In this document: positions 7,650 through 53,109 of the stretch, one piece after another | Numbering within the stretch: position 1 is the first letter of the stretch | Layout: each line of letters begins with the position of its first letter | Notes under the pieces: model-generated | Seen by the model: the letters and a program-made list of their open reading frames with translations, nothing else | What the model was told of the DNA's origin: nothing | Database searches by the model: none | Position numbers and translations under genes: made by a program | Source of the DNA: Malachius bipustulatus | Lineage: Eukaryota; Arthropoda; Insecta; Coleoptera; Melyridae | Assembly (NCBI GenBank): GCA_910589415.1 | Contig: OU342637.1 | Span: forward strand, 33,820,162-33,884,161 | Direction: 5' to 3' | Length of the DNA: 64,000 nucleotides

Positions 7650-8917
7650 CTATTCAATCGACTTCGGCTGTTGAATATGTTCGGAATGTTTACGTTTATA
7701 ATGTCTAGTTAAATCATATTTAATTCCAGTCTGATATGAACATTCTCCACATTTGTACATTTTAGCATCTTCAGAATGTTTACGTTTATAATGTGTAGTC
7801 AAATAATGTTCAACTCTGGTCTCATATGAACATTCTCCACATTTGTACATTTTAGTATCTTCGGAATGTTTACATTTATTATGTTGGGCCAAATTATGTT
7901 TAATTCCAGTCTGATATGAACATTCTCCACATTTGTACATTTTAGCATCTTCGGAATGTTTATGTTTAAAATGAACAGTGAAATTATGTTCAACTCTGGT
8001 CTCATATGAACATTCTCCACATAGTTATTTGTAGAGCTGAAATTATATGTAACTCAGCAGTTATTCACACCCTTTGTATGGCGTAGATAAATGAATTTGT
8101 ACATTTTAGTATGTTTGGAATGTTTACGTTTATAATGTCTAGTTAAATCATATATAATTCCAGTCTGATATGAACATTCTCCACATTTGTACATTTTAGC
8201 ATCTTCGGAATGTTTACGTTTAAAATGTATAGTGAAATTATGTTCAACTCTGGTCTCATATGAACATTCTCCACATTTGTACATTTTGGCATTTTTGGAA
8301 TGTTTACGTTCATGATGTTGGGCCAAATCATATTTAATTCCGGTCTCATATGAACATTCTCCACATTTGTACATTTTAGTATGTTCGGAATGTTTACGTT
8401 TATAATGAATGATAAAATGACATCTATTATTTGTTTTATACGCGCAATGGGCACAGTTATACTTCAACTCTCCTCCGCTGTTACTTCCCGAAAATCGTGC
8501 CTGAAGTGCCTCACTTTCTTGAATAGAATCACACAGATCGAGTCCACCCTTAACAATTCCACGGCTATCACGACTCCCGGTCGGCTGCTCCCAGCCCGGT
8601 TTGTGATCCTCGATATCGATCTCCTCTTTCAAGGCCGACATCGATGAGTCTTCCTCTTCCAGTTCTTGTTTTATTGAAATAGGTGCCTCAAAAGTGTTCC
8701 CAAAATTATTTAAAATAGAAGACGGCTCGCAACCAGCATCCTTCTTTGGTTTATCTTCACATTTCAACTTCGCCGAGTTGAGTAACAAGAAGTCGTCCTC
8801 GGACTCCATAAACTGATCATCCTCATCTGAGGCTTCCGCTTCCGTTTTGATGATCATTTTCTCCACCTGCTGATGTTGAAGGGGACGATAATCATTACTG
8901 CCCTCATTTAGGCTCAT
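7650..8917 (-). pseudogene. C2H2 zinc-finger gene copy B, broken by a 74-bp insertion
   Basis: The N-terminal region is very similar to copy A (start MSLNEGSNDYRP) and is followed by one divergent and three standard fingers. The insertion at 8023-8096 then disrupts the next finger and brings a stop, giving a 287-residue product (8917 to 8054) with four complete fingers. Downstream, 8022-7650 encodes four more finger units, the first lacking its opening residues, ending at a stop after EHIQQPKSIE. Of the five SUMO-type motifs in copy A, the last (VKGE) reads VKGG here. The short ORF could still be expressed, so a truncated gene is an alternative to pseudogene. Confidence 0.75.
8023..8096. mobile_element. 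74-bp insertion in a finger of copy B
   Basis: Comparison with the invariant finger repeat shows exactly 74 extra bases between the codon for Lys and the Cys of the finger. The length is not a multiple of three and the insertion contains a stop. Splice-like bases exist within it (GTGTGAAT and TTTCAG), but the interval between them is about 34 bases, too short for a normal intron. It is most likely a small transposon fragment. Confidence 0.6.
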
Positions 8918-9386
8918 GGCGGTTAACTTTTCTTTGAAATTGATGATGAAGCTAATACCTCTATTAATTACGCTCTATTATTATTTTATTACTTATTTAT
9001 TGGTATCAACTATCAATATCAATCATAGATTGTTAATAGAATATAAAAAAAATATATAAAATAAAAATAATATAATTAAGTATAAGTATGGTTATGGTAT
9101 ATAGGCTTTAGACAGTGCGTAATGTCAAACGTCAAACTACTCAAAGTGTGAACGTCAAGTCTCCACGTGGGGTGCGTTCACATAACACGCCGTATGGGTG
9201 AATTGGGTGAATAACAAAATTACAAAACATGCCTACTGCACACTGTGTGTTGTTTTGTTTCAAAATCCCTCTCAGGAATTTAAGACAAGAGGCTACAGCA
9301 TGGACGGTCACGGATATTCCCAGAATGCGTTTGCGTAAAAGTGACGTGACCATTGCGCGGCAATCTCTTGAAATATCAAAATATTC
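8918..9386 (-). repeat. 5' flank of zinc-finger copy B, shared with copy A
   Basis: This matches 1969-2450 with small indels and ends at the same ATCAAAATATT. It marks one boundary of the tandem duplication unit. Confidence 0.7.
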
Positions 9387-12714: not shown

Positions 12715-12902
12715 TATAGCGTTTTACTGGATCTGACCAAACAAAAGTGTTTGTGCCCCAGCGGGGATTCGAACCCCGGACCTCCTGATTACGCGTCAGG
12801 TGTGCTTACCACTACACTACCCAGGTCACTTGCAATTGTCGTGGTCAGATCGGCTATATGTGTTGTTGTTTCTCTCTCTTGTGGGAGCGAGTGGTCGCCA
12901 CA
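12715..12902 (-). repeat. 3' LTR of the TRIM
   Basis: 188 bp, same sequence as the 5' LTR where compared. It starts TGTGGCGACC on the minus strand, immediately after the polypurine tract. Confidence 0.85.
12755..12826 (-). other. tRNA-like cloverleaf inside the 3' LTR
   Basis: The D arm pairs (GTGT with GCAC), the anticodon arm pairs (CCTGA with TCAGG) and the T arm pairs (CGGGG with CCCCG around TTCGAAT). The A box TAGTGTAGTGG fits TRGYNNARNNG, and the B box GGTTCGAATCC fits the consensus. The anticodon loop CGCGTAA has G instead of U at position 33, and the acceptor strands ACCTGGG and CTGGGGC pair only in part. It is therefore tRNA-derived with an intact internal pol III promoter, not a normal tRNA gene. 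Confidence 0.75.
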
Positions 12903-13141: not shown

Positions 13142-13329
13142 TATAGCGTTTTACTGGATCTGACCAAACAAAAGTGTTTGTGCCCCAGCGGGGATTCGAA
13201 CCCCGGACCTCCTGATTACGCGTCAGGTGTGCTTACCACTACACTACCCAGGTCACTTGCAATTGTCGTGGTCAGATCGGCTATATGTGTTGTTGTTTCT
13301 CTCTCTTGTGGGAGCGAGTGGTCGCCACA
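13142..13329 (-). repeat. 5' LTR of the TRIM
   Basis: 188 bp, matching the other LTR at an offset of 427 wherever compared, which suggests a young insertion. It contains the tRNA-like segment 13182-13253 in the sense orientation of the element. Confidence 0.85.
13182..13253 (-). other. tRNA-like cloverleaf inside the 5' LTR
   Basis: Same sequence as the copy at 12755-12826, with the same intact A and B boxes and the same flaws in the acceptor stem and at position 33. Confidence 0.75.
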
Positions 13330-15786: not shown

Positions 15787-16047
15787 GTGAGTTCTGTGTT
15801 CTTACTTTTATTGGTATTTTCTTACCCACTTCTTGTTCTTGTATACTTTTGCGGGTTAGGTACTTATGTGCTTATTGGTGCGCCCACAGAAACAGAATAG
15901 ACTAATTATTCTGTGGTGCGCCTATGCGATGATAATTCCTCTTCACAAGCCCCCCTCCACTAAGTCAGGTCTTTGGTCAGGTTAGGTTTTTCCCCTGAAA
16001 TTTCAAGGAAATGAAAGAAGAAATAAAAGTAAAATAAGATTAGGTTA

Positions 16048-18256
16048 TGTAACCGGCGGGGGATGAGATGATGTGAAAATCTCTTTTCCTTAACGTTCAC
16101 TCTTCCGATAGATCGAACACACAACTTGCGTTGTTTGCTCTCACTATCGTTATTATGAAGTTAAAGTCTCCCTGTCACATTAGTCCTTTGGCTGGCCGAG
16201 CGGTTTGTCAGAAAAAGGCTTTCGAAAAGAATGGTAGGTAGGGGCTACACCATCTCAATTAATATGAGTGGCAGCTCTTTTTGGGGATTATTCGAGGTAA
16301 CTCATGGCTCTATTCTATACTTATCTTTCGCTGATGTTTCCTGAAATCTGGACTTCTGCCCTGTTGGTCATCTTAATAATTATTGTAGGTAGCTTTATAT
16401 CACTGACTTGATCTTGTCACTTACTCACTGGGAAGTTTATTGTTGAACAAATAAAATTTAGAAAATAATAAAAATCAATTAAATTCTACTGACTTCCTCT
16501 GCCTTGTTGTAACTCAAGTTATTCGATTATTAATTTGATGCTTTAATTAAATTTCATGGGTGGAAAAGAAAGGCCACATTGCAAATAAATTTACAATTTA
16601 TTAAAATTTAAATTAATTGGAAAACGACTACATTTATTTGAAATAAGAAATATCACGATTGTCAATCGATTGATTAATTATTGGTCAATGACTTAATCCT
16701 AGGTAAACCTGTATCTGGAGCAATAAAACATTTCGGTCGCGTTCATTGCGGGTTAATTTCCCTTGAGTGAATTTCGTACCAAAAGTCGCGATTTCTGGCC
16801 AGTCATCCTTCTAAGGGGATGGACCAAAAATTTAGATAGTGATCACTCCGATATTTTTTATTACTCCCCCATCCAATTTAGAAATACAACTAGATGCTCC
16901 AAGCACCCACAAAAATAATAAATTCGTTAACCGACCATTATAGAATTTTAAGGTGAACCAGCCTTTGCTGGCTTACGAACAATAAACTAAAATTATGCCA
17001 ATTTTAGGACTCGAAGACATAAGTAGGTATGTTATTCTTAATTACAAAATATTTTAATCAGACTGACACCGTCTGTCCATTATTGATGAACTAATTCCTG
17101 AATTTTAACTCATCGAGTCGTAAAATTGGAGGTGGCATAAAAAAAAATAAATGAAAGGTTAATCTTACAGACTACATTCTACCTTAACATCCGTTGGCAG
17201 CAGGCTCTTGTTTACTATTGATCCTTACATTATTTGTCCACAAACAACACTTGTACACTTCCGAACCTAACGGACCCTTATGACCCTAATAGTTAATCAC
17301 CGTGGCGCGATCACTCCCTCGCCTATGCGATTCGTCTCTCTTAATTTGCTCTCCTAGCACTATTACCCGCCTATTTTTCCGGCCTATACGATTCCCTTTA
17401 TCTATGGATTAACTTTCCCTTAAAATTTGCCGCGCTCCCAGAGCATTCTGCGACCGACGATTAAGTACCACTACCCTCGTCTTCCTATTTTAATTAATCC
17501 GCGCACCCCGTGCGATTAATTTCTCCCGGTACCCCGTACCGCATTATTTAATTATTTTCCTATATCTCCATAAATTCTCTCGCGCCCCCAGAGCACTTAC
17601 GGTCAACGATTCACTCCTGTGTTGAGTCCCCACGTAACCGAGTTCCTATCCTATCACACTCCCTCGCGACCAACGCTTACTCTATTATTGTCTCGATTTA
17701 TTTATTTCCGCGTACCTACTCCGCGAGTACCTATACAATCAACTCTCTATCTTCTCCGCGGATTCTATGCTACCATCTTCCCCGACACCCGGTGTCGTCT
17801 TTTTCCGATTTTCAACCCCCTAGGTCTAAGCGTCACTGCCTAAGCTTTTCACGTTACCGACTCGCGTCTTTACACCCAACTTCTGTGTGTTCACTCTCGT
17901 GTCTACCTACTTAATCCTCTCCGTGACCTGATTAAATTCATTATCCCGTGTCTAGACGTAATGGAATTTTCTATTCGCTAGTTTTGCCGCCTGTTACAAA
18001 CGGACCCTTGTTCATGTCGTCCGTTTCTCATGGATTTCAGTTACGCGAGCCTTCTGCCAAGGCCAACCTCCAGACTATAACTAACTATTATACATGCATC
18101 ATTAAGATTATAATATTCTTAACAGAGAAAAGACCTGAGCTCTATGTTCAAATGTAAATCACGTTTTACTTCTGGATATTTTTCTTTTACCCAGCTGAAT
18201 TCTTAATTCCCCTGATATTTCAAAATACGGACTGTCGATGTTCTCGACATGTCACA
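16048..18256 (-). repeat. 3' LTR (2209 bp) of the env-bearing element
   Basis: Same length and, where compared, same sequence as 26974-29182. Between 17434 and 17797 it contains a series of short perfect hairpins with three-base loops. The ORFs of 74 and 69 codons inside are identical in both LTRs only because the LTRs are identical. Confidence 0.9.
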
Positions 18257-18272
18257 TAGCTTCCCCCTTTAT
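18257..18272 (-). promoter_or_regulatory. Polypurine tract
   Basis: The minus strand reads AAAGGGGGAAGCTA directly before the 3' LTR start TGTGACA. A purine run at this position is the normal plus-strand primer of LTR elements. Confidence 0.75.
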
Positions 18273-18483
18273 AAAAAGTAACTACGTATTCCAGCGTATT
18301 ACTTTTTTCCAAACTAGAGCTGAGGTTGTCCAAAACTAAAGTACATACAATATAATAAGGGATCCTGGTCCCTTCTCAACAAGTTATATTAATCCTAAGA
18401 TTACTGTTTCCTTTACATATTCTGATGTTCTAGGGACTATCAACACTATGATGTCGAACAACACTTCATGACCTGTCCGTTAC
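18273..18483. other. Non-coding 3' region of the LTR element
   Basis: Short stretch between the env stop and the polypurine tract. No further ORF. Confidence 0.5.
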
Positions 18484-20517
18484 TCACTCGCTCGTGGTAG
18501 GTGTAACATGATCTGTCCAGTGTGACTCCGGCTGGGTCAATGTCAAGGTCGGATATAGTTTCGGGGCCCGACCTTCTTCTACGCGAGAACATTTCGCGGC
18601 GGTTGTATGTTCCAATTCGGCTTCCGTAGCGATTCCTACCTCGGACGCCACTGTGTGCTGCCCATTTTTGTTTCTTAAATGTCTCTGCACTAATATCATT
18701 GCAAGCGAGTTCCACACACAAGCAATTAATTGTAGTCCACACCCAAGTGTTTGGTAAAGATGTAAACCGTTTATGATCACACCGATCGCGTACTTGCAAA
18801 GTTTGAAGATGAAGTAAAATCCCATGATCCCACTGATGAAGGTTCCTAGATCTACGAACCATCCCCACATTTGTTTCATGGATGAATGTGCGAGTTCCTT
18901 TATTTCGTCCGTATTGAAAATACGAAGGACCGAATAGCCTTGACCGCTAGTGTCTAATCCCGCTACACGACGCGTTATTATGTTTTCCACTGCCTTCCGC
19001 TCGATACCAAATGTTAGTATGCGCTGCACCTGTCCCACTTCTTCTTGGGTGTAGAGTCCTGCTTGTCCGACTGGGAGGATGGGTTGAAATTGTAACGTTG
19101 GATATGGTTGGACCTGTAGTTTCTTAGGTTCTCTCTTTACGGTGGGGAATGGAGTGAGTCCTATCCATTCGTTGTCTATTTCATATAATGGCGGTGCTGC
19201 AGCGTTACAATCTATTTGCTCAGCTGTCTCCTGCAATACGTGAGTTATTGGGGCCATAAACAAGTTTCTTTCGTCTAACTGCACTGGTAGCTCGTGAAAA
19301 CATTCTGATGTTCTCCTGATTGTAACAATCTTGGGTATACATCTCATTATATATAGGACTTCGCCCAGCACTCTGCCTACGTAACCAGGTTCATTCTGCA
19401 GTAGTTGACTTACAGTATTAGGTGAGAACGGTGCCATCAGTAAGCGATTTCTCAAGATTTCCCGCTGTAGCAAACACCGACGGTGAATTACGTCTAAGTA
19501 AATCTTCTCTAGTTCCCTCTTGTATGCTTGTTCGATGTACATGAATTTACTATTCACGTACATCATTAAATCAGTGTTTTCAGGAATCAAACTCATTTTA
19601 GAGGTGGTGGAAAAGTCATTATCTCCTATCAGTACCATCAATCTGGGATGTTCTGTCTGCCACACTTCTTCTCCGCAAACCAACTTTGTTTTGACAAGAT
19701 TTACCGCAAATATCTTCTCAGCGTTCTCGACAACTAGTGTTTCTTCCTTCGTGGATCGGCTTGTAACTTTCCTGGCTGCTCCGTTGTACAACAGCGTATA
19801 ACTGGGCTGGCAATCATTCTTATTCTCCTCGTCCCATACTGTCTCTCCCAACACCGAGTCGAAACAATAACCTGACATAAACGGACAGGTTACTCCTCCT
19901 AGCAAACTTATCTCATTGTCGTTGATCCTAACCTTGGTGAAGTAATCTCGTACGTTTAAGGTTATGGCGGCTACCACAACAACATCTTGCCAAGTGTTTA
20001 CGCCTTCTTGATAGGTAACCCCATTACAGTCTCCATTTGCATCTACCTCTCCGGCGATCGTCACGGAAGCTGAAGTGCTCCCATTCATAGTTATCTGGCC
20101 AATTTGATGGTGAAATAATTGAAGCGATCTGTACCGATGGACGTTGCGGCATTCCTCAGCTCCTAACTGGTGGATGTAACTGGACATGCTCTGGCTGACT
20201 AATGAACTGTGGGACCAATGTCCACAATGCATTTTCATCTGTACTACTTCTACTAGACAAGTCATTACGTGATGTAATCTGATCTCATTCCGCTGTATAA
20301 CCTTGATCCGTATCTTCTCAACAAGGTACTCCGATTCAGGTTCCGGGCACTTTGCAACGTCCTTTATGGAAATCATTGTGAGGTTGACCCTCTGGTCTTC
20401 ACAGTCGTATGCTACAAGTCCTTCCGCTTTGATAATGTTCATTACACAGAGACTTAACAACACGAAGAACTTCATCTTGACCGTTCTCGATTTTTCCCGT
20501 TTAATAGTTTGGTGCAC
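18484..20517 (-). CDS. env: Env-like glycoprotein, chuvirus-type
   Basis: 677 residues, uninterrupted. A hydrophobic signal peptide is seen at about 15-32 (MKFFVLLSLCVMNI). The ectodomain is Cys-rich. A long hydrophobic region at about 548-610 (WFVDLGTFISGIMGF and on to LAMILV) would anchor it, followed by a tail of about 60 residues. The segment GEVLYIMRC, then SECFHELPV, resembles the glycoproteins of chuviruses and their relatives (Monjiviricetes), which insect LTR elements are known to have captured. I see no furin-type RxxR plus fusion-peptide pattern of the baculovirus-F-like env of errantiviruses. Family assignment is from memory of motifs and not checked by search. Confidence 0.75.
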   Translation of the reverse strand: MHQTIKREKSRTVKMKFFVLLSLCVMNIIKAEGLVAYDCEDQRVNLTMISIKDVAKCPEPESEYLVEKIRIKVIQRNEIRLHHVMTCLVEVVQMKMHCGHWSHSSLVSQSMSSYIHQLGAEECRNVHRYRSLQLFHHQIGQITMNGSTSASVTIAGEVDANGDCNGVTYQEGVNTWQDVVVVAAITLNVRDYFTKVRINDNEISLLGGVTCPFMSGYCFDSVLGETVWDEENKNDCQPSYTLLYNGAARKVTSRSTKEETLVVENAEKIFAVNLVKTKLVCGEEVWQTEHPRLMVLIGDNDFSTTSKMSLIPENTDLMMYVNSKFMYIEQAYKRELEKIYLDVIHRRCLLQREILRNRLLMAPFSPNTVSQLLQNEPGYVGRVLGEVLYIMRCIPKIVTIRRTSECFHELPVQLDERNLFMAPITHVLQETAEQIDCNAAAPPLYEIDNEWIGLTPFPTVKREPKKLQVQPYPTLQFQPILPVGQAGLYTQEEVGQVQRILTFGIERKAVENIITRRVAGLDTSGQGYSVLRIFNTDEIKELAHSSMKQMWGWFVDLGTFISGIMGFYFIFKLCKYAIGVIINGLHLYQTLGCGLQLIACVWNSLAMILVQRHLRNKNGQHTVASEVGIATEAELEHTTAAKCSRVEEGRAPKLYPTLTLTQPESHWTDHVTPTTSE

Positions 20518-21379
20518 CGAGTTTGATCACTTTCACTTCCTAACCATATGGATTGTCTTCGCGTACACTTTACCTTTCCGAAGCACAGTTTTCAGCAGTC
20601 TATCACTCGGCTACCACTTGCGAGTTTATTCCGCTAGAACATGAACTCAATTAACATGGTCGTCTTTTCTACAAGTTACCTACATCTGATTGAAAATTCT
20701 TCAACCTCATCCCTATGCTACACATACTCATACATGATTACCGAGTAACAGAGTTTAATCCATCCCAAGAAGGAGTCACGATCTGCCCGATAGGAAGGAA
20801 AAAACATACTCATAAAGAGTAAAGAACGCGTCTTCACTAGATGCTGGCATTGACCTTCCTCCTGTCCTGAGATAGAGCAAAACCACTACTCAGTTAATGA
20901 TTATTTAACAACTTTACACACACAGAGTTACCTATGCTAAGATACATGGTAGTGCTGATGACCCCTTTCTACTTTCTAATCACCTTAGTATCTACATAGT
21001 ACCTACTCTAATCTTAACTACTTTTGTTCATTAGCATTTAGCCGTAACGAACAGACCAGGTGCCTACTACAATGAGTAGCCAACTCGTCTTCAACAAGGT
21101 TACAATCAAAATTTAATATTGAGCATCAGATACTTCATTACTTTTTGACAAGGGTACAACCAAAATTTAATATCGGGTTTCAATTATTACTTCTTTATTT
21201 ATTAATTACTGAATGATTAAATAATTTACAACAATAAATTTATACAGATAGTTTCTGTCTCCCAGCTGACTCGATTTCATGGCTTGCTTGCCGAACAGTC
21301 ACCCTATCTTTCGGTTTCTTCCTTCGTCCGACTCTTCCAAGTGACAGGAACTGTTTTTATCTTCAGGTTGTTACTGGTT
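20518..21379. other. Non-coding spacer between pol and env
   Basis: About 860 bp with no sizeable sense ORF. It includes two similar short segments (tacaatcaaaatttaatatt near 21107 and tacaaccaaaatttaatatc near 21155). An env splice acceptor is expected in or near it, but I cannot pick one. Confidence 0.5.
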
Positions 21380-24300
21380 TTACAAATCTAGGCGGACCGG
21401 TGGCCGTCTCGCTCTGGTAGATCTTCTAGGAATTCTGTCAGGAGGATACCTAGCTGGTACTCTGACTCTTACCTCAGGCTGTTGAGCTATCATGGCAGGT
21501 GCCGGATAATACAGAACTTGCGGGCAGTAGGGCAAGTAGGTCTGGGTATATTCTCGTACTCGTCGCTCCTCCTTTCGTACATCCTTATCCTTTGGTTCTG
21601 AGTCGTCATTTAAGTCATATTCACTGCTCTCCGAACTACTTTCGTCTGTCGAGTAAGTATCAAGGTCGACTTCTCTTCTCGTTTTTCTGACAGTTTTTGA
21701 ATTCTTATTCTTCCTACCGTGTCGTGTCTCTTGTTCCAGGACATATTCGTCTTCGTCAAATTCTTCGTCTTCTTCTTCTGTCTCCTCTTCGTTCTCGTCT
21801 TCTTCTTCTTCAATATCGTCCTCATGGTGGTCCACATACTTATCGATGTTGGCTTTACGTTTGGTAACCGGTCTGGTTATTTCTTTCAGTCGGGGGATGT
21901 CCTGAGGAGAAAGTCTCTCTACATACGGTTTCATTCTATCAATCATGACCGTGTATTCCTTCTGTTTGGTTTGGTGCTTTACAACGAATGTTTTCTCTCC
22001 TAATTTCTTGACTATTTCCATGGGTCCGAGCCAAGCGGCGCTCAATTTTCTTGAATGTCCCAACTTTGCAGCCATGTTTTTGATGTATACAAAATCTCCT
22101 TCGCTAAAATGTTTCTCTTTAGTCTTCTTGTCGTACTGAACCTTCCTCTTGACACCGGCTTTCTCCAAACTTTCACTAACCGTTTGATACACATTCTTAA
22201 ATCTTTCTGAAAGTTCTGCTGAGAAGTTTTCGTCGTAATTATATCTTCTTCTAGATGATGCTATAAAATCGTCCACGGGTAATTTCTGCTCTCGTCCGTG
22301 CATGAGATAGAACGGACTATGTCCTGTCGACGAGTGCACTCTTCCTCTTATGGCCATCAATATGTATGGTATATAGTCATCCCAGTCTCGTTGATTCTTT
22401 TCTATATAATGTGATAACATAATCTTCATATCCCGATGCATCCGTTCGATACTGCCATTTTCTTGTGGTGAATAACTTGCGGTGTGTATTTGGCGAATCC
22501 CCAATAACTTGCAAACTTCTTTCATTAGCTTTGAGGTAAATTCTGTTCCAAGATCACTTAGTAATTTACTTGGTGTTCCGTGCCTTGTTATTACATGCTC
22601 TACAAACGCTCTCGCCACTGTGTCGGCTTTGTGATCGGGCAGAGGTATTGCTTCCGGATATTTGGTGAACAGATCTAGTACGGTGAGTATGTATCGATTT
22701 CCTTTATATGTGCTTACCAATGGACCTACTATATCAACGGATATTGTTTCGAATGGTCTTGACGAATTGCGGAAAGTTTTTAGGGGTGCCTTTCCTAAGT
22801 GTGGGGATGTTTTCCTTTCTTGACACTTCTCGCAACTTCTACAATATTCGATAACATCCTTTCTCATGGTTAACCAATAAAATCTTCTCTGGATGATGCT
22901 AAGCGTCTTCTCTTGTCCAGGGTGTCCGACTAATGGTGAATCATGGAATTCCTGAAATACTTCTTTCCTCATTGATTTGGGTAACAGTAACAAATCTTCA
23001 TGATCTTGATTTCGTGTTAGGTATAGTATACCATCCTTGTCTATGTAGTATTTTTCTAAGGTCTCTGGATCTTCATTATGATATTGTTGTAGCACTATTC
23101 TGCAGTAGTCATCTCGTTCCTGTAATGTCTTTATCCTTTCCTTATCCCACATGGGTTCCCATGCTAAGTCCGGTTGGACTACGTTCACTGTTGCTTTGTT
23201 TTCTAAACCTTGTTCCTGTATTCCTTTATTATTCCTGGAACCCTGTTCCTGTATTTCTGTATTATTCCTGGAGCCCTGCTCCTGTAATCCTGTATTAGCC
23301 CTGGAGCCCTGCTCCTGTAATCCTTCATTATTCCTGGAACCCAGTTCCTGTAAATTTATATTATTCCCGGAGCCCTGCTCCTGTAAACCTTCATTATTCT
23401 TGGAACCCAGTTCCTGCAAATCTTCATTATTCCTGGAGCCCTGCTCCTGTAAACCTTCATTATTTCTGGAACCCAGTTCCTGTAAACCTTTATTATTCCT
23501 GGAGCCCTGCTCCTGTAAACCTTCATTATTCCTGGAACCCAGTTCCTGTAAACCTTTATTATTTCTGGAGCCCTGCTCCTGTAAACCTTCATTATTCCTG
23601 GAACCCAGTTCCTGTAAACTTTTATTATTCCGGGAGCCCTGCTCCTGTAATCCTGTATTATTTCTGGAACCCTGTTCCTGTAAACTTTTATTATTCCTGG
23701 AGCCCTGCTCCTGTAAACCTTCATTATTCCTGGAACCCAGTTCCTGTAAATCTTCATTATTTCTGGAGCCCTGCTCCTGTAAACCTTCATTATTCCTGGA
23801 ACCCAGTTCCTGTAAACCTTTATTATTCCTGGAGCCCTGCTCCTGTAAACCTTCATTATTCCTGGAACTCAGTTCCTGTAAACTTTTATTATTCCGGGAG
23901 CCCTGCTCCTGTAATCCTGTATTATTTCTGGAACCCTGTTCCTGTAAACTTTTATTATTCCTGGAGCCCTGCTCCTGTAAACCTTCATTATTCCTGGAAC
24001 CCAGTTCCTGTAAATCTTCATTATTTCTGGAGCCCTGCTCCTGTAAACCTTCATTATTCCTGGAACCCAGTTCCTGTAAACCTTTATTATTCCTGGAGCC
24101 CTGCTCCTGTAAACCTTCATTATTCCTGGAACCCAGTTCCTGTAAATTTATATTATTCCCGGAGCCCTGCTCCTGTAATCCTGTATTATTCTTGGAACCC
24201 AGTTCCTGTAAATCTTCATTATTTCTGGAGCCCTGCTCCTGTAAACCTTCATTATTCCTGGAATCGTGTTTCTCGGGTCCATATGCTCCAATCGCTCCTC

Positions 24301-25192
24301 TTCCTTTCCTCAGGGAAGTTCCAATAGGTGAAGTTATTCCTTGCAGGTCCCTTCCCAAGCCTTTTCCCGGTTGGAATCCCATCTGCAGCATTATCTTCAT
24401 CCCAGCTCCGTACGTAGAGCCATAACTTTCATTTATTGTTGTCTTCAGCTCATCGTGGCATTCCCTTGCTCCTGCTTGTTCTGTAATGTTGTTTACTTTC
24501 GTATTATCCTGTTGAATTCCTCCTGAGACAAATCTAATAAAAGGTTGGGGCAATGTGCGGTTTTGTCTGCTACCTAGATTTCTTCCATGTCCATATCCTG
24601 AACTACTCTTCGTGACCTTGGTTCCGGCATTCCCGGCCTTGCCGATGTCCTTGTGGTAATTTCTTCCTGAAATACTCTCGTAACTTCTGTTTCTGTTGTC
24701 GGCTGGTTTAGAGCGGTTTCTATTGGTCTCCCTATTCACCATATACACTCGTATTCCTCGGAGTTCATGTTCGGCTTCTTCGTTTGTCAACACTACTAAC
24801 GTCACGCCCCACAAGTGCAATTTTGGCGCTGCTGTTGGATTGTACTGGAAGGTGCAAGCCTGTTGACTAAGAAAATCTCTGCCCAGTAATATGTCTGCTT
24901 CCTGAAACAATCTGTCGTCTACGATAATAAGGGACGCTTTTGCTTCTCCTCTTTTCTTAGGCTTAACATCAATAGTCACATTGATGACTCCATGTAATTG
25001 TAAGGCATGTCCTGTCACTCCTACCAATTTTACCAGATCTTCAGTGGAACGACGATTGGCGTAGGTTGGTACTATGCTTTTTCTAATGAGCGAGGCTGAA
25101 GCTCCGGTGTCTAATAAGCATTTTCTTGGAATTCCCTCTACGTTTAATATTACTAAATATGGTACGGCCTCTGTTGAATAATTAATTACCAT
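21380..25192 (-). CDS. pol: Pol-like protein: protease, G-patch, repeat array, integrase; no RT
   Basis: 1270 residues from the first Met; the frame is open further upstream to the gag stop, so translation by frameshift is likely. Domains in order: retropepsin (LLDTGAS at about 26-32, ILLGRDF near 96), G-patch (about 255-305, GFQPGKGLGRDLQG), 32 repeats of 11 residues (about 310-663), integrase HHCC zinc finger (about 745-790, GHPGQEKT, then CRSCEKCQ), and an integrase core with D (SVDIVGP, about 818), D (LSDLGTEF, about 882) and E (ENGSIERM, about 918). A GPY/F-like region and a long acidic tract follow. Reverse transcriptase and RNase H, expected between protease and integrase, are absent. 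Confidence 0.9.
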   Translation of the reverse strand: MVINYSTEAVPYLVILNVEGIPRKCLLDTGASASLIRKSIVPTYANRRSTEDLVKLVGVTGHALQLHGVINVTIDVKPKKRGEAKASLIIVDDRLFQEADILLGRDFLSQQACTFQYNPTAAPKLHLWGVTLVVLTNEEAEHELRGIRVYMVNRETNRNRSKPADNRNRSYESISGRNYHKDIGKAGNAGTKVTKSSSGYGHGRNLGSRQNRTLPQPFIRFVSGGIQQDNTKVNNITEQAGARECHDELKTTINESYGSTYGAGMKIMLQMGFQPGKGLGRDLQGITSPIGTSLRKGRGAIGAYGPEKHDSRNNEGLQEQGSRNNEDLQELGSKNNTGLQEQGSGNNINLQELGSRNNEGLQEQGSRNNKGLQELGSRNNEGLQEQGSRNNEDLQELGSRNNEGLQEQGSRNNKSLQEQGSRNNTGLQEQGSRNNKSLQELSSRNNEGLQEQGSRNNKGLQELGSRNNEGLQEQGSRNNEDLQELGSRNNEGLQEQGSRNNKSLQEQGSRNNTGLQEQGSRNNKSLQELGSRNNEGLQEQGSRNNKGLQELGSRNNEGLQEQGSRNNKGLQELGSRNNEGLQEQGSRNNEDLQELGSKNNEGLQEQGSGNNINLQELGSRNNEGLQEQGSRANTGLQEQGSRNNTEIQEQGSRNNKGIQEQGLENKATVNVVQPDLAWEPMWDKERIKTLQERDDYCRIVLQQYHNEDPETLEKYYIDKDGILYLTRNQDHEDLLLLPKSMRKEVFQEFHDSPLVGHPGQEKTLSIIQRRFYWLTMRKDVIEYCRSCEKCQERKTSPHLGKAPLKTFRNSSRPFETISVDIVGPLVSTYKGNRYILTVLDLFTKYPEAIPLPDHKADTVARAFVEHVITRHGTPSKLLSDLGTEFTSKLMKEVCKLLGIRQIHTASYSPQENGSIERMHRDMKIMLSHYIEKNQRDWDDYIPYILMAIRGRVHSSTGHSPFYLMHGREQKLPVDDFIASSRRRYNYDENFSAELSERFKNVYQTVSESLEKAGVKRKVQYDKKTKEKHFSEGDFVYIKNMAAKLGHSRKLSAAWLGPMEIVKKLGEKTFVVKHQTKQKEYTVMIDRMKPYVERLSPQDIPRLKEITRPVTKRKANIDKYVDHHEDDIEEEEDENEEETEEEDEEFDEDEYVLEQETRHGRKNKNSKTVRKTRREVDLDTYSTDESSSESSEYDLNDDSEPKDKDVRKEERRVREYTQTYLPYCPQVLYYPAPAMIAQQPEVRVRVPARYPPDRIPRRSTRARRPPVRLDL
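23205..24262 (-). repeat. 33-bp tandem array (32 units) inside pol
   Basis: Each unit encodes LQE(Q/L)GSRNN plus two variable residues. Units ending the motif in Q or L mostly alternate. Blocks of eight units recur almost unchanged (about units 5-12 and 13-20), so a 264-bp higher-order repeat is present. All units keep the frame. The array sits where the reverse transcriptase should be. Confidence 0.9.
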
Positions 25193-25290
25193 CGGAATAC
25201 AGCCTTGATGTTCTAGTTTAACGTCTCTTTCGGACGAATTTCCCCCTCTATCACTACGGCTCGCTGGTTGGGGAAGGGCAGGTCGCCGTC

Positions 25291-26310
25291 CTAGTTTAAC
25301 GTCTCTCTCGGACGAGTTTCTTCTTGGGTGGTGTTCTCACTCCTTCCCTCCTCTTCTAGGATGATCGTGCAGTCTTTCGCCCAATGCCCTTCATTCCCAC
25401 ATCGATAACAACCTTGATTACGAGGACGTCCTTGACCTCCGTTTCGATTATTCCAGGGTCTGTAGTTCCGGTTATAATCATAACCTATGTTTGTCCCTTG
25501 TCTATTGTCTGTCTGCGTCTGGTTTCTAGGACAGTCCCTTTTGAAGTGCCCTTCCTGATCACATCCGAAGCATTTTCTGGGAGATTGGTTGGCTCTGTCT
25601 TCTCTAACCGGTTGCCTTACTCTAGAGTTACGAATTCCCCTCACTGTGCCTCCCTGAGTTCTCTGTTTCAGCATGGCCTGTGTCATTTCCTGTACCTTTA
25701 CTATCTGTTCTGCCTTATCAATGGTTAACGCTGGTTCTGATAGCAGAGTGGTTCCTACTTTTTCCAGTAGATCTCTTCTCAGGCCTGTCTTAAATTGATT
25801 TAAGACCAACTGTTCCAATTGCAATTTTACTCCGGCCTTCTGATTGTCATTTGCTCCTTTTAAGCTTTCTGCCAAAGCACACGCTCCTAGGTACTTCAGT
25901 CTCGTGCTAAATGACGCTACTCCCTCATCTGACCTTTGGTAGCATCTCCCCAATTTTAGCAACGCTTCTCCTGGCATGCGCGTCTGTGTGAATTTTTTAA
26001 TGAACTTCTCCTTCAGTTCTTCGTATGTTAAATTATTTAACTCCTCTTCGGACTTGAAATATTGTGCTGCCTCACCAGTTAGTTTAAATTTAAAAATTTT
26101 CAAGGTATCTTCCCTAGACAAATCGTCTAATCTTGCTCTGGCTTCTAGCCTTGTAAAATATTCTGCCACAGAACTTTTTCCGTTATAAAACTCGAACGTG
26201 CCTGCCAGCACTCCTAAACTAATTTTCTGTTGGGTTGTTATATTAAAATTTTGGACGGGAGGTCCTGCTGGTCCCGCCGCTGCTAGTTCTTCAGGATCTT
26301 CTAAAGGCAT
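25291..26310 (-). CDS. gag: Gag polyprotein of the LTR element
   Basis: 339 residues. The N-terminal two thirds is a gypsy-type capsid (FEFYNGKSSVAEYFTRLE, LKIFKFKLTGEAAQYF, YEELKEKFIKKF, SFSTRLKYLG). Two CCHC zinc knuckles follow near the C-terminus: CFGCDQEGHFKRDC and CYRCGNEGHWAKDC. It would form the particle and bind the RNA. The ORF ends in GTTAAAC TAG, a likely -1 frameshift site leading into the pol-like frame. The leader between primer site and start (26311-26954) is non-coding and contains a T-run at about 26605-26625. Confidence 0.92.
   Translation of the reverse strand: MPLEDPEELAAAGPAGPPVQNFNITTQQKISLGVLAGTFEFYNGKSSVAEYFTRLEARARLDDLSREDTLKIFKFKLTGEAAQYFKSEEELNNLTYEELKEKFIKKFTQTRMPGEALLKLGRCYQRSDEGVASFSTRLKYLGACALAESLKGANDNQKAGVKLQLEQLVLNQFKTGLRRDLLEKVGTTLLSEPALTIDKAEQIVKVQEMTQAMLKQRTQGGTVRGIRNSRVRQPVREDRANQSPRKCFGCDQEGHFKRDCPRNQTQTDNRQGTNIGYDYNRNYRPWNNRNGGQGRPRNQGCYRCGNEGHWAKDCTIILEEEGRSENTTQEETRPRETLN
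25294..25300 (-). promoter_or_regulatory. Putative -1 ribosomal frameshift heptamer GTTAAAC
   Basis: In the gag frame the last codons read G TTA AAC TAG. The pol frame is -1 relative to gag and is open through this point and on to the integrase. A slip on this heptamer would therefore make Gag-Pol. GUUAAAC before UAG is, to my knowledge, the equine arteritis virus slippery site. A second GTTAAAC, within a repeat of about 27 bases, lies at 25216-25222 in the pol frame. Confidence 0.65.
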
Positions 26311-26954
26311 TTTGACCTATTTATTGTCACGCGATTATAGGTAGATAAATTAAAAAAAAATTGCCAAAATATATTTTTCACACTTCTGCAAGTCTAAATC
26401 ACACTATTTTTATTATTTCAATAGCTCAACCGATTCACTGACACAACACTCCTTCATAATTTTCACTTCACGATGTCACCATACACGATTACGCAATTCT
26501 TGTTTACCACGCGACATATCTCCCACCAAATATATCAACAAAAAAAATAAAAATAGTTTAAATAAATAACCATATTCATGCCCCCATGCAAGTTAGTAAT
26601 TATTTTTTTTTTTTTTTTTTTTTAATTGCCACCTTTTAAATAACAACTACCTATATGAAATATTTATTCACCATGTGAACACCGCTTCAGAATTCAGTAT
26701 TACTTAATAAGTCACGTGAATTATTTAGGTATCTACCTATTCACCGTGTGAACACCGCTTTAGCGACGGCATCTCATGCCGGCGTCACGTACGTGCTTTT
26801 GGCTGAAATTCCTGCACCTACCTACTTATAATGATATCTGTTACCTACAAGGCTCGCTCACCTACTTAATTCATGTAAAATTATTAATTTCGATATTCAG
26901 CGAATGATTTTTGATAAAACAGAGCCACGCGCCCCTCAAAACACCCCAAAACTA

Positions 26955-26971
26955 CCCCACACCTGACACCA
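26955..26971 (-). promoter_or_regulatory. Primer binding site, tRNA-Leu-like
   Basis: Two bases after the 5' LTR the minus strand reads TGGTGTCAGGTGTGGGG. TGGTGTCAG is complementary to the 3' end of tRNA-Leu genes (CTGACA plus CCA). The rest of the match could not be checked against this species' tRNAs. Confidence 0.7.
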
Positions 26972-26973
26972 GA

Positions 26974-29182
26974 TGTAACCGGCGGGGGATGAGATGATGT
27001 GAAAATCTCTTTTCCTTAACGTTCACTCTTCCGATAGATCGAACACACAACTTGCGTTGTTTGCTCTCACTATCGTTATTATGAAGTTAAAGTCTCCCTG
27101 TCACATTAGTCCTTTGGCTGGCCGAGCGGTTTGTCAGAAAAAGGCTTTCGAAAAGAATGGTAGGTAGGGGCTACACCATCTCAATTAATATGAGTGGCAG
27201 CTCTTTTTGGGGATTATTCGAGGTAACTCATGGCTCTATTCTATACTTATCTTTCGCTGATGTTTCCTGAAATCTGGACTTCTGCCCTGTTGGTCATCTT
27301 AATAATTATTGTAGGTAGCTTTATATCACTGACTTGATCTTGTCACTTACTCACTGGGAAGTTTATTGTTGAACAAATAAAATTTAGAAAATAATAAAAA
27401 TCAATTAAATTCTACTGACTTCCTCTGCCTTGTTGTAACTCAAGTTATTCGATTATTAATTTGATGCTTTAATTAAATTTCATGGGTGGAAAAGAAAGGC
27501 CACATTGCAAATAAATTTACAATTTATTAAAATTTAAATTAATTGGAAAACGACTACATTTATTTGAAATAAGAAATATCACGATTGTCAATCGATTGAT
27601 TAATTATTGGTCAATGACTTAATCCTAGGTAAACCTGTATCTGGAGCAATAAAACATTTCGGTCGCGTTCATTGCGGGTTAATTTCCCTTGAGTGAATTT
27701 CGTACCAAAAGTCGCGATTTCTGGCCAGTCATCCTTCTAAGGGGATGGACCAAAAATTTAGATAGTGATCACTCCGATATTTTTTATTACTCCCCCATCC
27801 AATTTAGAAATACAACTAGATGCTCCAAGCACCCACAAAAATAATAAATTCGTTAACCGACCATTATAGAATTTTAAGGTGAACCAGCCTTTGCTGGCTT
27901 ACGAACAATAAACTAAAATTATGCCAATTTTAGGACTCGAAGACATAAGTAGGTATGTTATTCTTAATTACAAAATATTTTAATCAGACTGACACCGTCT
28001 GTCCATTATTGATGAACTAATTCCTGAATTTTAACTCATCGAGTCGTAAAATTGGAGGTGGCATAAAAAAAAATAAATGAAAGGTTAATCTTACAGACTA
28101 CATTCTACCTTAACATCCGTTGGCAGCAGGCTCTTGTTTACTATTGATCCTTACATTATTTGTCCACAAACAACACTTGTACACTTCCGAACCTAACGGA
28201 CCCTTATGACCCTAATAGTTAATCACCGTGGCGCGATCACTCCCTCGCCTATGCGATTCGTCTCTCTTAATTTGCTCTCCTAGCACTATTACCCGCCTAT
28301 TTTTCCGGCCTATACGATTCCCTTTATCTATGGATTAACTTTCCCTTAAAATTTGCCGCGCTCCCAGAGCATTCTGCGACCGACGATTAAGTACCACTAC
28401 CCTCGTCTTCCTATTTTAATTAATCCGCGCACCCCGTGCGATTAATTTCTCCCGGTACCCCGTACCGCATTATTTAATTATTTTCCTATATCTCCATAAA
28501 TTCTCTCGCGCCCCCAGAGCACTTACGGTCAACGATTCACTCCTGTGTTGAGTCCCCACGTAACCGAGTTCCTATCCTATCACACTCCCTCGCGACCAAC
28601 GCTTACTCTATTATTGTCTCGATTTATTTATTTCCGCGTACCTACTCCGCGAGTACCTATACAATCAACTCTCTATCTTCTCCGCGGATTCTATGCTACC
28701 ATCTTCCCCGACACCCGGTGTCGTCTTTTTCCGATTTTCAACCCCCTAGGTCTAAGCGTCACTGCCTAAGCTTTTCACGTTACCGACTCGCGTCTTTACA
28801 CCCAACTTCTGTGTGTTCACTCTCGTGTCTACCTACTTAATCCTCTCCGTGACCTGATTAAATTCATTATCCCGTGTCTAGACGTAATGGAATTTTCTAT
28901 TCGCTAGTTTTGCCGCCTGTTACAAACGGACCCTTGTTCATGTCGTCCGTTTCTCATGGATTTCAGTTACGCGAGCCTTCTGCCAAGGCCAACCTCCAGA
29001 CTATAACTAACTATTATACATGCATCATTAAGATTATAATATTCTTAACAGAGAAAAGACCTGAGCTCTATGTTCAAATGTAAATCACGTTTTACTTCTG
29101 GATATTTTTCTTTTACCCAGCTGAATTCTTAATTCCCCTGATATTTCAAAATACGGACTGTCGATGTTCTCGACATGTCACA
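26974..29182 (-). repeat. 5' LTR (2209 bp) of the env-bearing element
   Basis: On the minus strand it begins TGTGACATGTCGAG and ends CCGCCGGTTACA. It has the same length as the other LTR, and all segments compared by eye were identical, including small ORFs within it. Unusually long for a gypsy-like LTR. It contains the cluster of three-base-loop hairpins described for the other copy. Confidence 0.9.
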
Positions 29183-29186
29183 GTTA

Positions 29187-52069: not shown

Positions 52070-53109
52070 CTAATTTTACCGGCCGGCACTTTTGATAACA
52101 AGAAGTCATCTGGGACGGACGAAATACCAACTTCTTTACTGAAAACTTGCATTCAAGCTATATCTAAGCCTCTTGTTGAGGTTCTCAATTATTAACAATT
52201 ATTGTTTCTTGTAGGAGGGGGTTTTTCCCTTATCACTGAAAAATGCCGAAGTTGTCCCACTGTACAAGAAAGGTGATCCTGACGACTTTGATAATAATTA
52301 TAGACCGATTAGTGTGTTGTCTGCTTTTTCCAAATTCTTTGAAAAGATTATGTATGACAGAATTGTACATGTTTTCAGGAAAGGACAAATCTGTGGAAAG
52401 AGCAGTCTTTGGATATTTGATATTTGACAGAGATTCTGAACGCTTTTGAGAGTGGCGACTTGGCATGTGGTCCGTTTCTTGACCTCTAGAAGGCTTTCAG
52501 TTCAATTAATCATGAGCTCCTGTCGGCAAATTGTATAATTATGGTATTAGGGGACAGGCACACTTATGGCTTAGATCATAATATCTGAGTGGACGATGTC
52601 AAAGTGTAATACTGCATGATGGCAATAAAACTGCGCACTCTGGTAAGTGGGACGTGACTCTTGGTGTCCCACAGGGAAGCATTCTTATTCTTGGACCACT
52701 TCTATTAGTCATTTTCATAAATGATCTACCTAGACCTATTAAGGACACTAATAATGACCTTATAAACTATGCTGATCATACTAACGTGCTGGTTAAAGGT
52801 CCACTATTGAGCGAGATAATCAGTAATAGTGATTGTCAGCTGTCTCATATTTCTGAGTGGTTTCTTGAGAACGGGTTGGTTCTGAATCTGGGTAAAACAC
52901 AACGTGTTGTATATGTATTCAGAACTACCCACAACAGGACATATATTCCTGATGTGCTGTTGTTGCAGCGTACAACAACAAACATTTCAGATAACAGTAA
53001 AATGCTTGTAATTTACATTGACTCTAATGTTAGTTGGTTTGCTCATGTCGGTCATTTGTGCAACAGACTGTTTGTGAACAGAAATGCCCTCAAATATGAA
53101 AAATCGTAA
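52070..53109 (+). mobile_element. Non-LTR retrotransposon remnant, RT domain
   Basis: Plus-strand pieces: KSSGTDEIPTSLLK (about 52105), VVPLYKKGDPDDFDNNYRPI (about 52250) and LGVPQGSILILGPLLLVIFI, then LINYADHTN, where the catalytic YADD reads YADH. NGLVLNLGKTQ follows. It has multiple stops between 52400 and 52650. Dead, inside PMPCA intron 4. Confidence 0.8.

Follow-up and report, generated by a model that had tools for sequence, protein, structure and literature searches.

An RT-less subfamily of an envelope-bearing endogenous retrovirus in the beetle Malachius bipustulatus, probably mobilised by near-identical siblings that keep reverse transcriptase

Among mouse intracisternal A-particle (IAP) elements, the I-delta-1 subtype is a deletion form whose shortened pol frame has stayed open and which is moved in trans by the proteins of full-length siblings, while its own fusion protein acts in cis, as described in the available part of the source (PMC6466679). 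This subtype is the nearest working parallel of an RT-less (lacking reverse transcriptase, RT) subfamily of long terminal repeat (LTR) elements that we describe here from a 64,000-nucleotide (nt) stretch of the Malachius bipustulatus genome (assembly GCA_910589415.1, contig OU342637.1, positions 33,820,162 to 33,884,161 of the forward strand; hereafter the window) and from related loci of the same assembly. Whereas IAP I-delta-1 has lost part of gag and pol and derives from env-less proviruses (PMC6466679), the beetle element keeps the whole of gag, protease, integrase and env and has lost a block comprising RT, RNase H and a macrodomain. With a probability of roughly 0.85, based on sequence comparison, we read the window copy as one of five members of a subfamily without RT, belonging to an env-bearing endogenous retrovirus of the Ty3/gypsy class; this subfamily would have arisen by one deletion and spread by means of RT provided in trans by its siblings.

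Other features of the lineage also have described counterparts. In Mason-Pfizer monkey virus (M-PMV), a betaretrovirus, a G-patch follows the protease ahead of RT and carries DHX15 into the particles, to the benefit of RNA packaging and of reverse transcription (PMC11459146, available part); the G-patch of the beetle element is, by contrast, recognisably derived from TFIP11 and sits in an insect element of the Ty3/gypsy class, where recruitment of DHX15 is a prediction. Plant Gypsy elements carry a G-patch as well, PF01585 being reported in LTR consensus sequences of seven dicot species, or 16 without the copy filter (PMC9289625, as far as available). A G-patch within a Gypsy element is therefore already known, and what appears to set the beetle element apart is its derivation from TFIP11, its host being an animal and the presence of env. 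Anakin, an LTR element of mosquitoes, has an envelope captured from Jingchuvirales (PMC7642597, available part), but its pol belongs to BEL/Pao, whereas the pols nearest to the beetle element are of the Ty3/gypsy class with RT preceding integrase. A 2023 survey, in its available text, gives no clear glycoprotein capture by Gypsy elements, although a complete but unclassified element of Bemisia tabaci is listed with a glycoprotein within it (PMC10084718). Maize Bs1 likewise holds captured pieces of host genes in the coding region of an LTR element (PMC13317346, available part); it is a plant element, whereas the beetle G-patch is conserved within two retroelement families and stands alongside env. 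In the literature searched, whose coverage left out most subscription journals, we came across no animal retroelement described as carrying a TFIP11 G-patch or an OARD1 macrodomain.

The LTRs of the window copy have TG...CA ends, show 0 differences over 2209 bp (95% upper bound of divergence 0.14%) and are flanked by GTTA. Its gag, pol and env frames are all open, pol retains both the protease DTG and an integrase triad spaced D-59-D-35-E, and an intact env sits between pol and the 3' LTR, as in an endogenous retrovirus. An earlier note on this DNA had described equal and matching LTRs, a perfect target duplication and open frames, all of which agree with these data, and had seen no RT or RNase H between the LTRs. 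This absence held in every search of the element. Pfam gave no match to RT or RNase H at E 1 in its three open reading frames, and tblastn with the pols of 12 of the 120 listed relatives matched it at E <0.01 in protease and integrase only. An RT plus RNase H profile built from 32 relatives reached a best E of 0.56 in the six-frame window, all eight printed matches lying outside the element, while a control integrase profile, of three sequences only, scored the window-copy pol at 3e-93. The idea that RT is located elsewhere in the element or the window was rejected, as tblastn and profile searches gave none. An RVT_1 fragment (E 1.4e-08) at 52582-53109 on the plus strand lies outside the element and is unmatched by the element's RT profile.

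The 544-Mb assembly (52 contigs) was searched with pol residues 1-320. At least 23 copies matched at 97-100% identity, 18 of them with their own RT and RNase H and five, namely the window copy and four others, without. Pol was read in 20 of the 22 other copies, of which 18 have RT and RNase H between the repeats and the integrase and two do not; in L030 and L031, read from the search loci, the repeats run directly into the integrase. The order protease, G-patch, repeats, RT, RNase H, integrase was found in 17 of the 18 RT-bearing copies, and the eighteenth agrees as far as it was read, so that these copies have the betaretroviral arrangement of a G-patch between protease and RT. Pol is open to its end in 17 of the 18 and stops inside the integrase in one. 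The 1947 nt of gag plus pol 1-310 are open in 23/23 copies, including 5/5 RT-less ones; env is present in all three RT-less copies checked for it, being open as far as read in two besides the window copy (634 and 501 residues). The RT loci of the host genome designated L001-L008 match no part of the element. The earlier note had looked to relatives with RT between protease and integrase, and 18 near-identical siblings of this kind were found; its proviso that this copy alone might lack RT does not apply, since 5/23 copies are RT-less.

All five RT-less copies share an identical in-frame junction, GLENK/ATVNVV, at which the RT-bearing copy L040 has 763 extra codons for RT, RNase H and a macrodomain. 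Upstream of it, the repeat tail SRNNTEIQEQGSRNNKGIQEQGLENK occurs in 5/5 RT-less and 0/18 RT-bearing copies. The deletion breakpoints carry AACAAAG at one side and AACAGAG at the other. The window copy has 32 repeat units and the other RT-less copies 38, 50, 27 and 17, compared with 12-53 in RT-bearing copies when the pattern is counted in the same way, or 13-54 going by span. An assembly collapse at 23200-24270, suspected in the earlier note, was rejected: this region consists of 32 eleven-residue repeats in frame, and the identical junction at four other loci, with other repeat numbers, speaks against a collapse. The 33-nt array (23207-24262; also L039-L058, L030 and L031) varies between 12 and 53 units among otherwise near-identical copies with the frame kept, and variation at the three codon positions within the repeats (0.085, 0.082 and 0.136) gives weak evidence of constraint.

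Within the LTR pairs of three RT-less copies there are 0/2209, 0/2211 and 0/2210 differences, and one copy differs from another by 1-5 substitutions; the three are flanked by perfect 4-bp duplications, namely GTTA, AACA and AGAT. A single deletion that is found in several copies, at different target sites, is the pattern of a helper-dependent deletion subfamily, and the repetition of the RT-less layout at different duplications, proposed as a check by the earlier note, was thus observed (one junction in 5/23 copies; three duplications read). Given identical LTR pairs, substitutions between copies and different duplications, each of the three most likely arose when an RT-less template was reverse-transcribed recently and separately, unless it was converted in place later. 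The identical pairs together with the three duplications make it most likely that, after a single deletion, the RT-less form went on to move more than once.

The flanks of the deletion were compared between the two forms. Over gag plus pol 1-310, RT-less and RT-bearing copies differ at 0-20 sites and RT-less copies among themselves at 3-13. Over 1812 nt of 3' pol, the window copy is identical to 9 of 17 RT-bearing copies. The pol-env spacer, in the part compared, is 99-100% identical to that of the window copy in 17/18 RT-bearing copies (one with an insertion), and the env start of two RT-bearing copies (185 and 273 nt) is identical to that of the window copy, with 52 nt of a third at 92%. The flanks of RT-less copies match different RT-bearing copies. 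Gag and early pol contain 13 informative sites; 11 of them occur in all four combinations with the deletion, and among the 78 pairs that these sites form with each other, 38 likewise show all four. Because a single deletion carries mosaic flanks, this pattern implies recombination between the RT-less and RT-bearing forms, as co-packaged RNAs would give.

From the RT-bearing siblings and the mosaic flanks we infer mobilisation of the RT-less copies in trans. The source of RT is most likely the 18 near-identical siblings in the same genome, rather than an unrelated element. In the mechanism we propose, RT-less RNA would be packaged together with RT-bearing RNA or Gag-Pol, and RT would switch between RT-less and RT-bearing templates, leaving mosaic flanks. 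The subfamily's own protease-G-patch-integrase protein would also be incorporated and, by analogy with IAP I-delta-1, may act in cis, while its G-patch is predicted to bind the host helicase DHX15 and so aid RNA packaging or reverse transcription. The earlier note had pictured a non-autonomous element that keeps its own particle, protease, integrase and glycoprotein and borrows RT; the layout recurs with one junction in 5/23 copies, and the borrowing is the inferred part.

Some observations weigh against this reading. Mosaic flanks could also stem from gene conversion, and the 1947 nt hold no fixed difference between RT-less and RT-bearing copies, the subfamily being defined by the repeat tail and the junction alone. 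In an ungapped comparison, the 382-nt leader gives 0-236 differences. The LTR comparison covers RT-less copies only, RT-bearing env was compared at its start only, and the copy numbers are lower bounds, 125 of 166 candidates having been scored. If gene conversion between integrated proviruses had turned RT-bearing insertions into the RT-less form in place, no RT-less element would have needed to move; the mosaic flanks and the near-identity to RT-bearing copies fit conversion tracts, and identical LTR pairs are compatible with them. At least four separate conversions would however be required (contigs C1 twice, C7, C13 and C14), in very young insertions and with the same repeat tail each time, and the LTRs vary between copies but not within them, which makes this course of events unlikely.

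We give still less credence to the same deletion having arisen several times from RT-bearing parents, with the RT-less copies as dead-end products of their last reverse transcription. The near-matching 7-mers at the breakpoints could mark a recurrent template-switch site, and flanks matching different RT-bearing copies would follow, but the repeat tail common to all RT-less and no RT-bearing copies is hard to reconcile with separate events. Movement as DNA by integrase alone, without reverse transcription, scarcely deserves consideration: Gypsy-type integrases do occur in DNA transposons such as Ginger (PMC2836005, available part), yet LTRs that are identical within a copy and different between copies are the mark of reverse transcription, and near-identical RT-bearing siblings are at hand. 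Supply of RT in trans by these siblings, after one deletion, is thus the reading we retain.

Both forms carry a captured host G-patch in pol, which the earlier note overlooked. A homology search with pol 1-320 returned 263 proteins, and the 120 listed carry the G-patch and GCFC domains of TFIP11/septin-interacting protein; they are from insects wherever an organism is named, and no pol is among them. The match to the best TFIP11 covers the G-patch core (39/53 residues). Upstream, an FVSGGIQQ block in the same order as in TFIP11 matches weakly: on its own it scores 10.9 bits, the highest of 500 shuffles reaching 6.5, and in the PDB alignment it has 1.0 bit; an extension of the match over pol 145-216 was unsupported. 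At the 37 columns nearly invariant among the 120 TFIP11 proteins the element keeps 30 residues, as compared to 6 of 16 at variable columns (Fisher p 0.003). A stricter test, counting residues never seen in TFIP11, is only borderline (4/37 vs 6/16, p 0.05) and tempers this result.

The same genome contains a second family, whose protease is 43-59% identical and which has at least 14 loci with both protease and G-patch matches. Its loci include C7:5783829, C1:4695837 and C14:42941915 of genome G000, about 50% identical and with the same captured G-patch. Between the families, 40/48 G-patch residues are identical, and Y261, A263, M265 and T292 are common to both and never seen in the 120 TFIP11 proteins. 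The ratio of nonsynonymous to synonymous substitution rates (dN/dS) in the G-patch is 0.05-0.09 at a dS of 1.4-2.1 (6 of the 14 loci, 48 codons), values that are saturated and approximate. Because of the shared residues and the low dN/dS, a single capture of the TFIP11 G-patch probably preceded both families, and the domain has probably been kept by selection. Further protease matches, 23 at 42-45% and six at 34-35% identity, have no G-patch match nearby. A weaker match (58%) at C7:44821027 may be the host TFIP11 exon.

TFIP11 is a homologue of yeast Ntr1, the recruiter of the DHX15 homologue Prp43 (PMC2629433, available part), and the aromatic residue and two glycines tested in the M-PMV G-patch have counterparts at pol F273, G276 and G280 (PMC11459146). 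By this analogy, the element's G-patch is predicted to recruit DHX15 likewise.

In RT-bearing copies a second domain of host type lies between RNase H and integrase. This stretch of L040 (L040:2343-3080, minus strand) matches human OARD1/TARG1 (C6orf130) at E 3.9e-30; the Pfam Macro model scores it at 15.1 bits, below its cut-off of 22. One conserved macrodomain motif is found in 18/18 RT-bearing copies and a second in 16/18, and the lysine and aspartate that we take to be catalytic are both present in the aligned L040 sequence. The macrodomain also matches P0005 (Leptinotarsa, 51%), P0086, P0038 and P0110 among the 120 relatives. RT-less copies have lost it together with RT and RNase H. A further segment between the repeats and RT (L040:4263-4820, minus strand) is common to many relatives; it is dUTPase-like at 13.9 bits only (cut-off 22) and has no convincing PDB match.

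The integrase, placed with IQ-TREE among 60 of its 120 listed relatives, a set without BEL/Pao pols, is sister to P0004, P0005 and P0008 (98/90), all with RT preceding integrase, in line with Ty3/gypsy (Metaviridae). Among the 120, RT comes before integrase in 69 and after it in 49. The latter order (for example in P0045, P0050 and P0061) is that of Gmr1-like elements, and several of these relatives carry a SCAN domain. Two relatives show no RT, P0046 and P0116, both with SCAN and probably cut short ahead of RT; P0046 falls in the integrase-before-RT clade, and P0116 was not included in the tree. The nearest named relatives of pol are leaf-beetle sequences, and those of env are mostly beetle proteins, with two aphid entries. 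No relative came to light when IMG/VR was scanned with pol and env.

The pol frame is -1 relative to gag, with an overlap of 46 nt, and a GTTAAAC heptamer at the gag stop is the likely -1 frameshift site. This heptamer is retained in 23/23 family copies and occurs once, about 95 nt ahead of the pol match, in 6/6 loci of the second family. Nothing unusual in structure was found downstream of the slip site (z 0.75). At the gag-pol junction, a 30-nt stretch including GTTAAAC occurs twice, at 25213-25242 and 25291-25320, 78 nt apart and 93% identical. The features of the window copy are collected in Table 1, in which the roles of the tRNA primer binding site and the polypurine tract are our assumption.

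Table 1. Features of the RT-less copy in the window (positions of the window).
Feature	Position	Strand	Remarks
Whole LTR element	16048-29182	minus	13.1 kb
Target site duplication GTTA, left copy	16044-16047		sequence comparison
Target site duplication GTTA, right copy	29183-29186		sequence comparison
5' LTR	26974-29182	minus	2209 bp, same as other LTR
3' LTR	16048-18256	minus	2209 bp
Probable primer binding site	26954-26971	minus	TGG start, 2 nt past 5' LTR
Probable polypurine tract	18260-18270	minus	precedes 3' LTR
gag	25291-26310	minus	339 aa; Retrotrans_gag; two CCHC zinc knuckles
GTTAAAC heptamer	25294-25300	minus	at gag stop
pol, RT-less	21380-25192	minus	1270 aa counted from first ATG
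Aspartic protease	24851-25147	minus	pol 16-114; DTG at 28; RVP E 3.3e-06
TFIP11-derived segment	24263-24544	minus	pol 217-310; G-patch 260-303; portion preceding residue 258 weakly supported
Repeat array	23207-24262	minus	32 in-frame units of 33 nt / 11 aa; pol 311-662
Deletion junction GLENK/ATVNVV	23194-23195	minus	comparison with RT-bearing copy L040
Integrase	21893-23194	minus	Integrase_H2C2 738-796; rve 811-909; D820, D880, E916
env	18484-20475	minus	Monjiviricetes_fusion PF24664; E 1.9e-180; profile 5-650 of 653

Elsewhere in the window, C2H2 zinc-finger reading frames with 90-bp tandem repeats lie at 82-2025 and 7680-8974 (minus strand), and two tRNA-Thr(CGT) genes, 427 bp apart, at 12753-12827 and 13180-13254 (minus strand).

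Most of what is known of helper and satellite retroelements concerns gutted elements or laboratory mice. In this beetle the two forms are near-identical and young and lie in one assembly, and the satellite is without the RT-RNase H-macrodomain block only. This opens the question of why that block can be borrowed, and of the balance between cis and trans use of Pol. The interest of the RT-less subfamily is raised by the captured G-patch and macrodomain. Taken together, we lean towards a lineage built from captured parts, namely a TFIP11 G-patch that would recruit DHX15 by convergence with betaretroviruses, an OARD1/TARG1 macrodomain and a Monjiviricetes envelope, with an RT-less satellite that depends on its RT-bearing siblings and undergoes recombination with them. 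That a macrodomain stands in the pol of a retroelement suggests some importance of ADP-ribosylation for this lineage. With a TFIP11 G-patch placed between protease and RT, the lineage seems to have arrived at the betaretroviral arrangement independently and, if so, the link between DHX15 and retroviral RNA packaging becomes testable across phyla.

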